Source of the DNA: a virus
DNA length: 33,249 bases
Direction: 5' to 3' (one strand)
IMG/VR virus record: IMGVR_UViG_3300031951_000715
Span: 1-33,249 of that record
A program made the translations under genes and the position numbers. Under the pieces are notes generated by a model. It did not search any database. It saw only the letters and a list, made by a program, of their open reading frames with translations, and was not told where the DNA came from. Of the stretch, positions 11,723 to 15,488 are shown piece after piece. Each line of letters begins with the position of its first letter. Position 1 is the first letter of the stretch.

Positions 11723-12205
11723 TTAAACCCTCGCTAAAATATAAGTATCCGCACCGTCAGGACTATATTTTTTCATTAGCCCTTCGATCTCAAAACCAAG
11801 GTACTCTGCCCAGCGTAATGCCCTCGGCTCGTCAGATCTTACCGTAAGTTGGAGCCTGTGCAATGAAAGCGATTGCGCCACGATATCGCTAAATGACTTA
11901 GCGACTATGGTTAGCTGCTTTGGATAGCGTCTAGCATCGTCAGATATGATTGACCACATCTCAGCCACACCAGTCCACAGTATGATGCAGCCGAACATTG
12001 CCACAGGTTTGCCGTAAACTAGTGCAGTCACTGCGAGTCCGAGCCTAGCTTGCATTTCAAGCATGGTATCCATAGAGACAGCCTTCGCAAATGGTAGCTG
12101 ACTCTCAGTAATGCTCATGTAATGTAGGTGGCTGGGAACCATTGGTATGTAACACACACCAGCTTTTCTAGGTAATCGCTCGTTTAGCTCGATTATGTTG
12201 ATCAT
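11723..12205 (-). CDS. GNAT-fold protein, T7 gp13-like
   Basis: A 160-residue protein with a GNAT-like layout: an N-terminal strand and helix, LGLAVTALVYGKPVAMFGCI as the central beta hairpin, and a C-terminal RLQLTVRSDEPRALRWAEYL with GFEIEGLMKKYSPDG, the usual acetyltransferase ending. Phage relatives include T7 gp13 (internal virion protein A, DUF2833), which is GNAT-derived. Placement directly after terminase rather than beside gp14 differs from T7. Catalytic acetyl transfer is not established. The ATG overlaps the TerL stop as ATGA. Confidence 0.7.
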   Translation of the reverse strand: MINIIELNERLPRKAGVCYIPMVPSHLHYMSITESQLPFAKAVSMDTMLEMQARLGLAVTALVYGKPVAMFGCIILWTGVAEMWSIISDDARRYPKQLTIVAKSFSDIVAQSLSLHRLQLTVRSDEPRALRWAEYLGFEIEGLMKKYSPDGADTYILARV

Positions 12206-13752
12206 TCAAACGGATCAAAGTCTGAATTAGCAATAGTCTGTACAACTATCGTATTTTGTAGGTGTTGCGGCTTGGTTAATCGCTTATGCTCACCGCCACC
12301 CAGCAGCAAGTAGCCAAATGCGTCACCTACGTGGGAATGTTCGTTCTTGTTTGGCGCATCTCTAAACCTCTCATGACCTGCGCCCACAGCAATCCGCTTA
12401 AAGTGGTAGCCACCAGCCAGCGCTTTACGCAATAACTTGCACCGAGTGTTGACCATCAGCCCAGCTTTACCCTGTATCAGTCTTTGCATTGGCATAGCAG
12501 CTGCTTCTCTACGCACCTTAAAGTCATTTGATGGGGCTGGTTGTGCGCGCAAACCCAAGGTACGCAGGTAGTCAAAGCTTGTTACCTCATAAATTGCGTC
12601 TCGTGCCATACCTGCCGGATCGCCCCACAGCAATACTTGGAAGTTTGGGTACTTTGCGTTTAACTCTGCCAGCAGTTGCTGACCAAAACGCTCCAAACCC
12701 ATGTCTTCAGTAACGATTTCATCAAGAATATTCCACCTACCATTAGGCAAGCGCTGACCAATGACAGCAGCTGGTGTCAAACCAAAGTCTAACCCTACCT
12801 GTATAGCCTGAGTTGGATCCACATTTACATCACCAGACATCATGGAGTCATCATATTCCTGCCAGACTGGTTTTCCTTCCTGCACATAGACATATTGTCC
12901 ACCAGCGTAGCAGCGGATCCAGTCTAAATTTTTACCTAATAGCATTTGCTGGTAGTAGCCAGCAGGTAAGTTCTTAATATTTTCTGCTTTAGGGTTTAGC
13001 TTCCACCACTTTCCGGCTGCAAAAATATGATCATTCGCCTCTGGATTGTCTGGCAACTCAGCTGGATTAACTTCAACTACACCACCTTCCTGCTTGAAGA
13101 ACTTCCAAGCATACTTTCCAGTCATCTTTTCTTTTTCTGCTAACCGATACCAGTAGTGATCATCATCCATGGGATTCGTATCCATCCATATACCGTGCCA
13201 ACTACTCCCACCGTCACGCTTAGTAGGATACCTGCCAACCCTGTGAGTAAGACCATCAATAACGGCTTTAGGTAATTCTCTTGCTTCATTGACCCACGCT
13301 CCTGTAAGTTCTAAGGACAGTAGTTTTCTTACGTCCTTTGGTTGATCAAGTGCCAAAAATATGACTTCGCAATCCACACCAGCTGCACCATCTCTAGCTG
13401 GTAGCCTGATGTGATGGGTAATCGGTGGAGTCCAAAGTAATGATCCAAATGTATTCTCAGGAAATAAATCTAACCACGTTTTAATCGTAGTGGTCTTTAG
13501 CATTGGGTACGAGTTACGTACTATCGCCCAGCGAGAGTAACGGATATTGTCTATAGGGCTGGGTTTTTGTTGGATAGCCTTGATAAATATCTTGGCTGCA
13601 CACGCATAAGACTTACCGCTACCGACTGGCCCCATTAAGCCTTGGACGAAATTGTCCGACTGCATGAACTCCCACACCTTTGGCGAGTCAGAAAAGTCTA
13701 AGTTAATACCAATATCTGGTACTGCCTTACCGCTAGTTTCCTTAGTCTTCAT
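12202..13752 (-). CDS. terL: terminase large subunit
   Basis: A 516-residue packaging motor. The ATPase P-loop GPVGSGKS is at residues 41-48. The Walker B-like GAWVNEARE is near 151-159, with Asn where Asp is common, and a coupling segment MDTNP follows at about 190. The RNase H-like nuclease domain begins at VGLDFG (Asp322). Near the C-terminus HSHVGDAFGYLLLG carries a further nuclease acidic residue. It cuts concatemeric DNA and pumps it through the portal. It overlaps the TerS gene by 11 bases. The unusual Asn in the Walker B region may simply reflect the family. Confidence 0.93.
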   Translation of the reverse strand: MKTKETSGKAVPDIGINLDFSDSPKVWEFMQSDNFVQGLMGPVGSGKSYACAAKIFIKAIQQKPSPIDNIRYSRWAIVRNSYPMLKTTTIKTWLDLFPENTFGSLLWTPPITHHIRLPARDGAAGVDCEVIFLALDQPKDVRKLLSLELTGAWVNEARELPKAVIDGLTHRVGRYPTKRDGGSSWHGIWMDTNPMDDDHYWYRLAEKEKMTGKYAWKFFKQEGGVVEVNPAELPDNPEANDHIFAAGKWWKLNPKAENIKNLPAGYYQQMLLGKNLDWIRCYAGGQYVYVQEGKPVWQEYDDSMMSGDVNVDPTQAIQVGLDFGLTPAAVIGQRLPNGRWNILDEIVTEDMGLERFGQQLLAELNAKYPNFQVLLWGDPAGMARDAIYEVTSFDYLRTLGLRAQPAPSNDFKVRREAAAMPMQRLIQGKAGLMVNTRCKLLRKALAGGYHFKRIAVGAGHERFRDAPNKNEHSHVGDAFGYLLLGGGEHKRLTKPQHLQNTIVVQTIANSDFDPFE

Positions 13753-14185
13753 CGTTTACATCAATCACTGTGGGCGCTTTGATATTGATACCAATCACGC
13801 TAGGTTTATCTCCATTGTCGCCACCGTCTAAGAGTCCAGAGGCTTTAGCCAGCAGTCGCAATACCTGCACTTTGTCATGTAGCTCGATCTCGATATAGGA
13901 ATTACCTTCTCGATCTGTGCGACTGGTTAGCTTTTTGATGGCATGGAGAGCGTGTTCAGGTATGTCTTTACTAGCTTTTACCATGACGTTACCAGAGGAA
14001 TCCCATTCCATAATATCTGATAGCTTGGTATTAGCCATTGATAGTAGTGCATAAGCGACAGCCTCCCTGTTAGCCTCCAGAGTGCCGGATCTCTCCAGTC
14101 TTTTCTGGATGAGACGTACACCACCATAGTTCTTCAATGGTGGTATCTGGTTTGGAAACTTCTCTTTTTCTTTTTTAGTAGCCAT
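13742..14185 (-). CDS. terS: terminase small subunit
   Basis: A 147-residue protein. The N-terminal part (GGVRLIQKRLERSGTLEANR) is followed by LSMANTKLSDIMEWDSSGNV and HALHAIKKLTSRTDREGNSY, then VQVLRLLAKASGLLDGG. The 'xxI..W...G....K....P......I......' series ending in 'LL.K..GL' is the pattern of the TerS family that includes P22- and BPP-1-type small subunits. It recognises the packaging site and hands DNA to TerL. The gene follows a 255-base structured leader that may contain the packaging site or a promoter. Confidence 0.85.
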   Translation of the reverse strand: MATKKEKEKFPNQIPPLKNYGGVRLIQKRLERSGTLEANREAVAYALLSMANTKLSDIMEWDSSGNVMVKASKDIPEHALHAIKKLTSRTDREGNSYIEIELHDKVQVLRLLAKASGLLDGGDNGDKPSVIGINIKAPTVIDVNDED

Positions 14186-14440
14186 AATCTTTAAATTGAA
14201 GTTGGTGATCGGTGCTTATCTCCGACATATGAAGTGTCCCATACAGTGTTTGCAGCAGCTGGGTTTACTGCCTTGCAATTCATGCCCACTGATAAAGCTG
14301 CGTATCAGCCTACGCATCCACCAACACGACTGAGGACTGAACCTAGCTAGGGTTATTTAATCCTTGTTCAGCTCAAGGTAAAACACAATCCTCATGCGTG
14401 TTAGCCCTCGTCTTTCCGAGGTGTCAAATAATTTATTTAT
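14186..14440 (-). other. hairpin-rich non-coding leader between acb2 and terS
   Basis: No convincing gene. Inverted repeats seen on the + strand are TGCGTA/TACGCA (about 14299-14316), the palindrome CCTAGCTAGG (about 14343-14352), CCTTG/CAAGG (about 14362-14378) and CCTCG/CGAGG (14406-14421). The region shares TGTTAGCCC (14399-14407) and AATTGAAG plus TTGGTGA (14194-14208) with the leader at 15923-16034. Possible roles are a structured 5' leader, a packaging site or an antitermination element; none is proven. A 33-codon Cys-rich open frame within it lacks a good ribosome site. Confidence 0.45.
14398..14427 (-). promoter_or_regulatory. candidate promoter downstream of acb2
   Basis: On the minus strand TTGACA (14427-14422) is a perfect -35 hexamer. 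An 18-base spacer follows, then TAACAC (14403-14398) as a weak -10. The spacer is nearly filled by a hairpin. Orientation would drive terS, terL and the head genes. Confidence 0.4.
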
Positions 14441-14662
14441 TTAAAATGTAGTTGGTTTTGCCACAGACCTTATTAATGCCATAAAACCTTGCTGCAAATT
14501 AGTTGTTCCAATACTTAACCAACGAGGATCAATTTCAATATCAGGTTTATTTTTAATACTAGCAATCATATCCTGAACAACAATAGCCAACTCCTTAATA
14601 TCATTAATTGCAGATATTTCTTGCTCAGATAGTTCTCTATATCCAATTATATTTTTTTTCAT
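14441..14662 (-). CDS. acb2: Acb2-type anti-CBASS protein (cyclic nucleotide sponge)
   Basis: A 73-residue helical protein. IGYRELSEQEISAINDIKEL at the start and DPRWLSIGTTNLQQGFMALI at the end carry the conserved pattern of the Acb2/Tad1 hairpin family ('GYReLs..Ei...N.iKe', then 'dpRW..IG.t.LQ.GFMAL.R.va.PT.F'). Acb2 hexamers bind signalling cyclic di- and trinucleotides and so block CBASS (and often Thoeris) defence. Tyr8 and Lys23 sit 15 apart, as do Tyr11 and Lys26, described for the cGAMP pocket of Pseudomonas phage PaMx33 Acb2. No membrane part. It stands alone between two non-coding leaders, suggesting separate expression control. Cyclic-nucleotide specificity cannot be read from sequence. 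Confidence 0.88.
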   Translation of the reverse strand: MKKNIIGYRELSEQEISAINDIKELAIVVQDMIASIKNKPDIEIDPRWLSIGTTNLQQGFMALIRSVAKPTTF

Positions 14663-14815
14663 TTTTACTCCATAAATTAGGTACTGGCAGTCGCAACCCT
14701 AGCCAGCGTAGGTTTAAGGAAAACTGTGCGACTCAGCCTTAAAAGGTAGGTACTCGCTGCACTAGCTGCAATGCTATCCGCTTCACGCAGTGCCGCACAC
14801 TAGAATCCGCTTTCC
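14663..14815 (-). other. structured non-coding leader of acb2
   Basis: No gene was found. On the minus strand GTCGCA (about 14731) pairs with TGCGAC about 37 bases on. Inside this stem AACCTA faces TAGGGTT. TAGGTACT occurs twice (about 14678 and 14745), and ATCCGCTT twice near 14780 and 14806. GGAG lies 6 bases before the acb2 ATG. It does not fold as a tRNA by eye. Confidence 0.35.
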
Positions 14816-15067
14816 CTAAAACTGTCTCCTCTTCCACAGTGCCAGCTCTACAGGCTTTGCACCCAAGGCTTTCAACTCGATACCCAAATAGGTATCAAAG
14901 TTAGTAACCCCATAGCCTAACCCTACGTAGACTCGTTCACTGTAGTGAGGCAAGTAAGTTATACCTTTTAAGGTATACGCTATGCAGATATCCGTCTCCA
15001 TCATTGCCCCAGCTGGCAGACCAGCATCAGGATCTGGAGTGCGTACTCTTTTCTTGGTAGCCATCAT
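14816..15067 (-). CDS. hypothetical protein (83 aa)
   Basis: An 83-residue protein starting at tandem ATGs (MMATKKRVRTPDPDAGLPAG). It has a basic start, a middle segment ICIAYTLKGITYLPHYSERV and a basic end (LALWKRRQF). Beta strands are likely; there is no membrane segment. I recognise no family. Its first 41 bases overlap the end of the HNH-like gene in another frame, a longer overlap than most here, so the true start could be a later codon. It is transcribed toward acb2, and may be regulatory or anti-host by position only. Confidence 0.5.
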   Translation of the reverse strand: MMATKKRVRTPDPDAGLPAGAMMETDICIAYTLKGITYLPHYSERVYVGLGYGVTNFDTYLGIELKALGAKPVELALWKRRQF

Positions 15068-15488
15068 TTATTTCCTTATGCCTTTGTTTGTGGCATGGCT
15101 GGCAAAGCCACATCACATCAAGCTTTTTATCGTAATCCTCATGATGAGCATAAGCTTTTTCAGCTCCACATCTAACGCATGGACATCTAACCAAAACACC
15201 AGCTCTTAATGCTCTTGTTACAGCATTGTGAGCAGCAGCTCGTCTTTTGTCCTGCTGCCTCCAGAATTGCGATATTTCTGATGCAGCTTTACGTCTAACA
15301 GGATCTTTTGCTCGTTCCCTATCATAAGCTCTGTAATACTCTATTTTTGCATTACGACTATTAGTTGAATCTTTTTTATTGCATTCTTTGCATTTATTTA
15401 AATGACCATCAGCCATTTGAGAATGCTTATAAAATTCAATTAAAGGCTTACTTACTTCGCACTTAAAACATACTTTTGAATGAATCAT
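15027..15488 (-). CDS. zinc-binding HNH-type endonuclease-like protein
   Basis: A 153-residue protein with two parts. Residues 1-40 hold two CxxC pairs (CFKC, CKEC), a small zinc finger. Residues ~100-145 hold CPCVRCGAEKAYAHHEDYDK followed by LDVMWLCQPCHKQRHK, an HNH-like zinc fold: CxRC and CxxC bind zinc, and the HHEDY and HxxRH histidines resemble the active site. Phages carry many such genes, either as homing enzymes or packaging accessories near terminase. A GGAG site precedes the ATG. Whether it cuts DNA is unproven. Confidence 0.7.
   Translation of the reverse strand: MIHSKVCFKCEVSKPLIEFYKHSQMADGHLNKCKECNKKDSTNSRNAKIEYYRAYDRERAKDPVRRKAASEISQFWRQQDKRRAAAHNAVTRALRAGVLVRCPCVRCGAEKAYAHHEDYDKKLDVMWLCQPCHKQRHKEINDGYQEKSTHSRS

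Follow-up and report, generated by a model that had tools for sequence, protein, structure and literature searches.

What does a 73-residue reading frame encode that stands alone in the gap ahead of the terminase genes of a viral genome, and what are the non-coding stretches on either side of it? The window analysed here is a whole virus record of 33,249 bases. The closest isolate found is Methylophilales phage MEP301, with a head-tail connector 75% identical to that of the window. The original prediction spoke of a T7-like virion genome. This is a fair description, since the virion genes are T7-type and the connector matches PF12236 (Pfam, E = 2.6e-95). A serine recombinase (PF00239, Pfam) is also encoded, and the frames found at the places of the MEP301 YqaJ and ERF genes match those genes, an assignment made by position only. 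PADLOC reported nothing in this genome beyond one sub-threshold PtuA match.

The acb2 frame and its neighbors

The frame, referred to here as acb2, lies on the minus strand, with its ATG at 14662, a stop ending at 14441 and 73 codons free of internal stops. No strand had been named previously; the plus-strand reading of 14441-14662 is interrupted by stops. The genes of this region are as follows.

12202 to 13752, minus strand: terL, terminase large subunit (PF04466, E = 8.1e-5; MEP301 gp45)
13742 to 14185, minus strand: terS, terminase small subunit, next gene downstream of acb2 (PF03592, E = 5.8e-5)
14441 to 14662, minus strand: acb2, 73-residue Acb2/Tad1-hairpin protein (MKKNIIGYRELSEQEI...SVAKPTTF), from PF24729, the PDB match and the predicted fold
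14668 to 14671, minus strand: GGAG, Shine-Dalgarno-like, five bases ahead of the acb2 ATG, read from the sequence
14816 to 15067, minus strand: 83-residue gene, next gene upstream of acb2, present in near relatives

The scores of terS against PF03592 and of terL against PF04466 fall slightly under the curated cut-offs; terS is syntenic with MEP301 gp49. The 83-residue gene has no Pfam match.

The acb2 product is a member of the Acb2 family

The Acb2/Tad1 hairpin pattern recognized in this frame is real. PF24729, the profile named beforehand for this check, matches the acb2 product over positions 1-58 of 58 with 54.2 bits (cut-off 27; E = 1.7e-14). A PDB search with the single sequence returned Acb2 only (E = 3e-11), and a profile search added T4 Vs.4 (profile E = 5.7e-5) to Acb2 p26. 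More than 500 viral homologues were found, and the commonest length among 75 extracted homologues is 74 residues; the 73-residue protein is therefore one more member. In an alignment of 37 sequences (36 viral homologues and the acb2 product), 15 residues are invariant and all are present here: Gly7, Tyr8, Arg9, Leu11, Asn20, Lys23, Arg47, Trp48, Thr54, Gln57, Gly59, Met61, Arg65, Pro70, and Phe73. The spacing of Tyr8 and Lys23 had been equated with that of Tyr11 and Lys26 in PaMx33 Acb2, residues that we take to line the pocket. Both pairs do align on the solved Acb2 chain 8h2j, with the numbering verified on the chain itself.

With one sequence as input the AlphaFold2 model was poor (pLDDT 73.6); with the 37 sequences it was good (pLDDT 90.7). 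The latter model, computed for a single chain, is an antiparallel hairpin of two helices (13-37 and 46-68) that carries the Tyr/Lys pair, as the original prediction would have it, and has no beta strand. In a Foldseek search against the PDB the best nine matches are all Acb2 or Vs.4 (8h2x, 8h2j, 7uq2), with a probability of 1.00 and TM scores by query length of up to 0.79; the drop to the tenth match (E = 1.6) is sharp. The profile and the predicted model together confirm the protein as a member of the Acb2 family, ordinary in kind. A chance frame or decayed gene, to which the short length and the low GC content (29.7%, against 43.0% for the window) might point, is refuted by the PF24729 match. 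The full-length profile, the fold, the residue conservation, the ribosome site and the absence of internal stops all speak against it, and we consider it practically excluded.

Proposed function

The separate pockets of the Acb2 hexamer take up three cyclic dinucleotides and two cyclic trinucleotides, which denies CBASS effectors their signal (PMC12043709, PMC10419184). By analogy, the acb2 product would form a hexamer that captures the cyclic di- and trinucleotide products of CBASS CD-NTases, and the infected cell would thereby escape being killed by CBASS effectors. The frame very probably encodes such an Acb2-type sponge, and acb2 is probably accessory cargo inserted into the gap ahead of terS.

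Alternatively, a protein with the Acb2 fold could have a narrowed or lost specificity; it might, for instance, be restricted to cyclic trinucleotides or bind no CBASS ligand. The acb2 product lacks the N-terminal QH motif and has MKKNI in place of M-D/E-NQH; QH is found in 61 of the 75 homologues and is common among them, not a known requirement. The ligand range varies among Acb2 homologues (PMC12043709). In addition, Panoptes defence is triggered by Acb2, which is a cost of carrying it and selects for phages that lose or retune Acb2 (PMC12657218); this could be why acb2-type genes come and go. In T4 Acb2 the Y8A mutation abolishes cyclic dinucleotide binding and Phe82 stacks on the ligand (PMC12657218). 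The Phe82 position is Ala68 in the acb2 product, and Ala also occupies it in the PaMx33-type Acb2 that was solved with cGAMP. Every alignment-invariant residue is kept, however, including Tyr8, Lys23, Arg47, and Thr54, and a changed specificity appears rather unlikely beside a sponge of the usual Acb2 type.

Protection against Thoeris had been suggested as a further possibility, and PF24729 does span the hairpin of Acb2 and Tad1 alike. Sponging of gcADPR is a trait of Tad1, in which the protomer with the gcADPR pocket has an N-terminal four-stranded beta-sheet (PMC12043709). This domain is absent from the acb2 product, in which the Gly-Tyr motif begins after only six residues, and the best fold matches are Acb2 and Vs.4. 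Thoeris protection is thus not borne out, and a Tad1-like sponge is highly improbable.

The original prediction described the gene as isolated between two non-coding leaders and inferred separately timed expression. The isolation stands, as acb2 is the only gene between 14186-14440 (255 bases) and 14663-14815 (153 bases), and such an arrangement would suit regulatory leaders that set its timing apart from the operon. The stretches called leaders hold structured RNA modules and no recognizable promoters. In three relatives (L011, L015, L094) RNA modules fill the same gap without acb2; the flanks are therefore not leaders made for this gene. A search of 14100-15100, itself a weak test, found no sigma-70-like promoter or intrinsic terminator. 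Separate timing is accordingly doubtful, and acb2 is probably transcribed within the minus-strand terminase/structural operon, not from a promoter of its own.

Recent gain of acb2

Acb2 was found in none of the 50 relative records scanned for it, many of which are fragments. Of 80 terminase relatives, the nearest (L009, L010, L014, L015; TerL 96-100% identical) lack acb2, and their DNA resumes beyond the gene. TerS is 96.6-100% identical across nine near relatives. Of the 63 loci scored, 56 have no space between terS and its upstream gene, which touch or overlap. Only in the cluster of the window are the two apart, by 76-255 bases up to the nearest frame of at least 50 codons. By sequence comparison, the phage lineage gained acb2 recently, and its low GC content agrees with acquisition.

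The content of the gap is nested. It is empty in L014 and holds RNA-A alone in L009, L010, and L015; L094 has RNA-A, RNA-B, and a tRNA-Tyr. In L011, RNA-A and RNA-B are accompanied by RNAs that resemble types II and I. The gap of the window contains RNA-A and RNA-B together with acb2, the constant hairpin, type II, and type I. The simplest reading of this series would be an accretion of modules in the lineage of the window. The tRNA-Tyr of L094 (12385-12471, minus strand) occupies the slot that in the window is taken by acb2 and the type I and II RNAs.

RNA modules on both sides of acb2

The non-coding stretches contain the following elements.

14197 to 14329, minus strand: type I RNA (P1, P2, variable domain, P3, kissing loops L2-L3), ending just before terS
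14321 to 14404, minus strand: type II RNA hairpin, CTAACACGCATG-AGG-ATTG, 46 variable bases, CAGT-CCT-CAGTCGTGTTGG, from pattern matches and covariation
14406 to 14421, minus strand: constant hairpin CCTCG-GAAAGA-CGAGG, directly after acb2 and ahead of the type II hairpin
14684 to 14743, minus strand: RNA-B, TTTTAAGGCTGAGTCGCACAG...TTGCGACTGCCAG, with AGTCGCA/TGCGACT able to pair
14746 to 14815, minus strand: RNA-A, constant ends GGGAAAGCGGAT ... GCAGCGAGTACCTA and a variable middle

The type I RNA consists of the stem P1, which closes it (GTTGGTG/CACCAAC or covarying variants), the hairpin P2, a middle, and the hairpin P3. The middle measures 27-177 bases (median 67) and is hypervariable, with 91 distinct sequences among 95. 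Across an alignment of 70 copies, both sides of a pair change in 87 cells, against 22.8 when shuffled and 5-48 with slid partners, and these changes are located in P1 and P3. P2 could not vary, because the copies were collected by exact patterns inside it. P3 was located by a score rewarding P1/P3 pairing (in one extraction also TCAG in the loop), which inflates the percentages of paired bases and affects the covariation less. Five poorly scoring copies were excluded from the alignment, and many loci are related. A covariance model, R1, gives the window's type I RNA 78.4 bits (E = 3.9e-18), the window being among its 70 training sequences.

The loops of P2 and P3 are complementary (L2 GCTGA, L3 TCAGC/T). 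When the L2 loop was left free in the scan, GACTGA appeared in five loci, all with TCAGT in L3, and GGTCGA in two, with TCGAC in L3; the L3 loops were chosen here without reward for complementarity to L2. On this sequence evidence, the existence of a type I RNA family is well supported.

This family is widespread. A 19-base pattern found at least 119 stretches in IMG/VR, and the type I RNA occurs in over 100 viral contigs (the window, L095-L213, and others). A longer pattern found ten loci in bacterial genomes, apparently all Pseudomonadota judged by name; the copy in an E. coli prophage (L103) is degraded. The stretch downstream of acb2 matches unannotated gaps in the unrelated Klebsiella phage ST16-OXA48phi5.2 and Alcaligenes phage CASP1, in both cases beside tRNA genes, as well as Iodobacter and Pseudomonas phages. 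Isolated phages with the type I RNA are CASP1, ST16-OXA48phi5.2, Pseudomonas ZC08, and Iodobacter PhiPLPE. Of 131 elements, 27 have a tRNA gene at a distance of about 1 kb or less; for control stretches the figures are 5 of 160 and 1 of 105. All 52 tRNAs near type I elements are on the strand of the element, which supports the strand assigned to the RNA, although these loci are not all independent. isrJ (L136, 142-220, plus strand) and abiF (L205, 1719-1755, minus strand) were also seen near type I elements.

The type II hairpin has constant ends, a covarying inner stem of 3 bp, and a variable tip of 28-103 bases. It gave 31 matches in RNA-bearing loci (L095-L223), and the sole match in the controls, L001, is a copy of the window. 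The downstream stretch folds better than its shuffles (z -2.4); its lowest-energy fold favors the type II hairpin, which is the top hairpin of the fold. Type II usually adjoins type I and shares a GTTGG segment with P1 of the latter; the two may therefore compete and be mutually exclusive. The constant hairpin, with loop GGAAAGAC, was found in six RNA-bearing loci (L097, L099, L100, L135, L145, L186) and in no control locus. It usually stands just ahead of type II, and its stem changes from CCTC/GAGG to CCCC/GGGG.

The upstream stretch as a whole folds no better than its shuffles (z +0.3). The exact 19-mer of RNA-B occurs in three viral contigs, all near relatives. RNA-A has constant ends around a middle that differs in L009, L010, L011, and L094 and is identical in L015; the middle is swapped wholesale among the phages with near-identical TerS. 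An RNA-A-like element is present in Alcaligenes phage CASP1. In L092, L114, and L174 a recurrent GTAGCATCGACATACGCGC(T/C)GGATAATCGTAACC(A/G)GC lies beside the flanking RNAs and is perhaps another module.

What the RNA array may be

Pairings on both sides of the gene raised the idea of a group I intron or ribozyme carrying acb2 as cargo. It was dropped because no Rfam intron was found at E-values up to 10 and the RNA modules occur without acb2. A general pairing of acb2 with the RNAs was likewise rejected: the type I motif was absent next to all 86 other acb2 loci, and Acb2 is present in one of 50 RNA-bearing records. Nor do the variable domains resemble rRNA: they give 32 short matches to that of E. 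coli, and their shuffled versions give 33-44. A tRNA T-loop motif is found in five of 116 variable domains (type I of L157, L195, L208, and L211; type II of L164), compared with 0.11 in shuffles; possible tRNA mimicry by these domains is only a lead.

Rfam 15 has no match on the window, with nothing relevant at permissive E-values, and on 19 RNA-bearing loci it recovers tRNA, isrJ, and abiF only, none overlapping the elements. No description of phage RNAs of the type I sequence or kind was found in the literature, most subscription journals lying outside the coverage. That the class is undescribed is judged from Rfam 15 and from a small number of text searches. Its members are strung with tRNA genes ahead of late genes and are swapped between close relatives. 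We tentatively propose that acb2 is flanked by members of an undescribed, widespread, and modular class of phage RNAs. The slot also takes acb2, and the RNAs may therefore themselves be counter-defence parts, for example decoys, a role that is speculation.

The RNA array is less expected than acb2 itself. One more phage lineage, related to Methylophilales phage MEP301, joins the Acb2 carriers, and the arrival of acb2 in an otherwise nearly unchanged terminase region provides a clean pair of relatives with and without the gene. The covarying RNAs have no Rfam entry, and their interiors change wholly between phages with almost identical terminases. Such replacement is usually the mark of an arms race or of freely exchanged cassettes and can be tested in the isolated carrier phages.

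Comparison with known systems

The acb2 product resembles Acb2 of the Pseudomonas phages PaMx33 and PaMx46 (PDB 8h2j, 8h2x, 8ixz) in its two-helix hairpin, its invariant residues, the Tyr and Lys placed 15 residues apart, and the C-terminal Phe. It is 42% identical to the PaMx46 protein. Unlike these proteins it lacks the QH motif and is 20 residues shorter, mostly in the interhelical loop; among ten aligned sequences, PaMx46 stands out as the exception by its long loop. T4 Acb2 (Vs.4, PDB 7uq2) has the same fold and also has Tyr8, whereas its sequence is remote and it carries Phe82 in place of Ala68. The short-loop Acb2 proteins of phages Kaldavass, CHOED, MQM1, and others are of about the same length (approximately 73-76 residues) and 52-56% identical; they retain the N-terminal NQH motif that the acb2 product lacks. 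Tad1 (Thoeris anti-defence 1) has the PF24729 hairpin in common with the acb2 product and differs in its additional N-terminal beta-sheet domain.

The RNAs flanking acb2 are comparable to GOLLD and ROOL, which are structured phage RNAs that also occur near tRNA genes. In contrast to GOLLD and ROOL, they have no Rfam match, are much smaller, and build a constant frame around a hypervariable interior.
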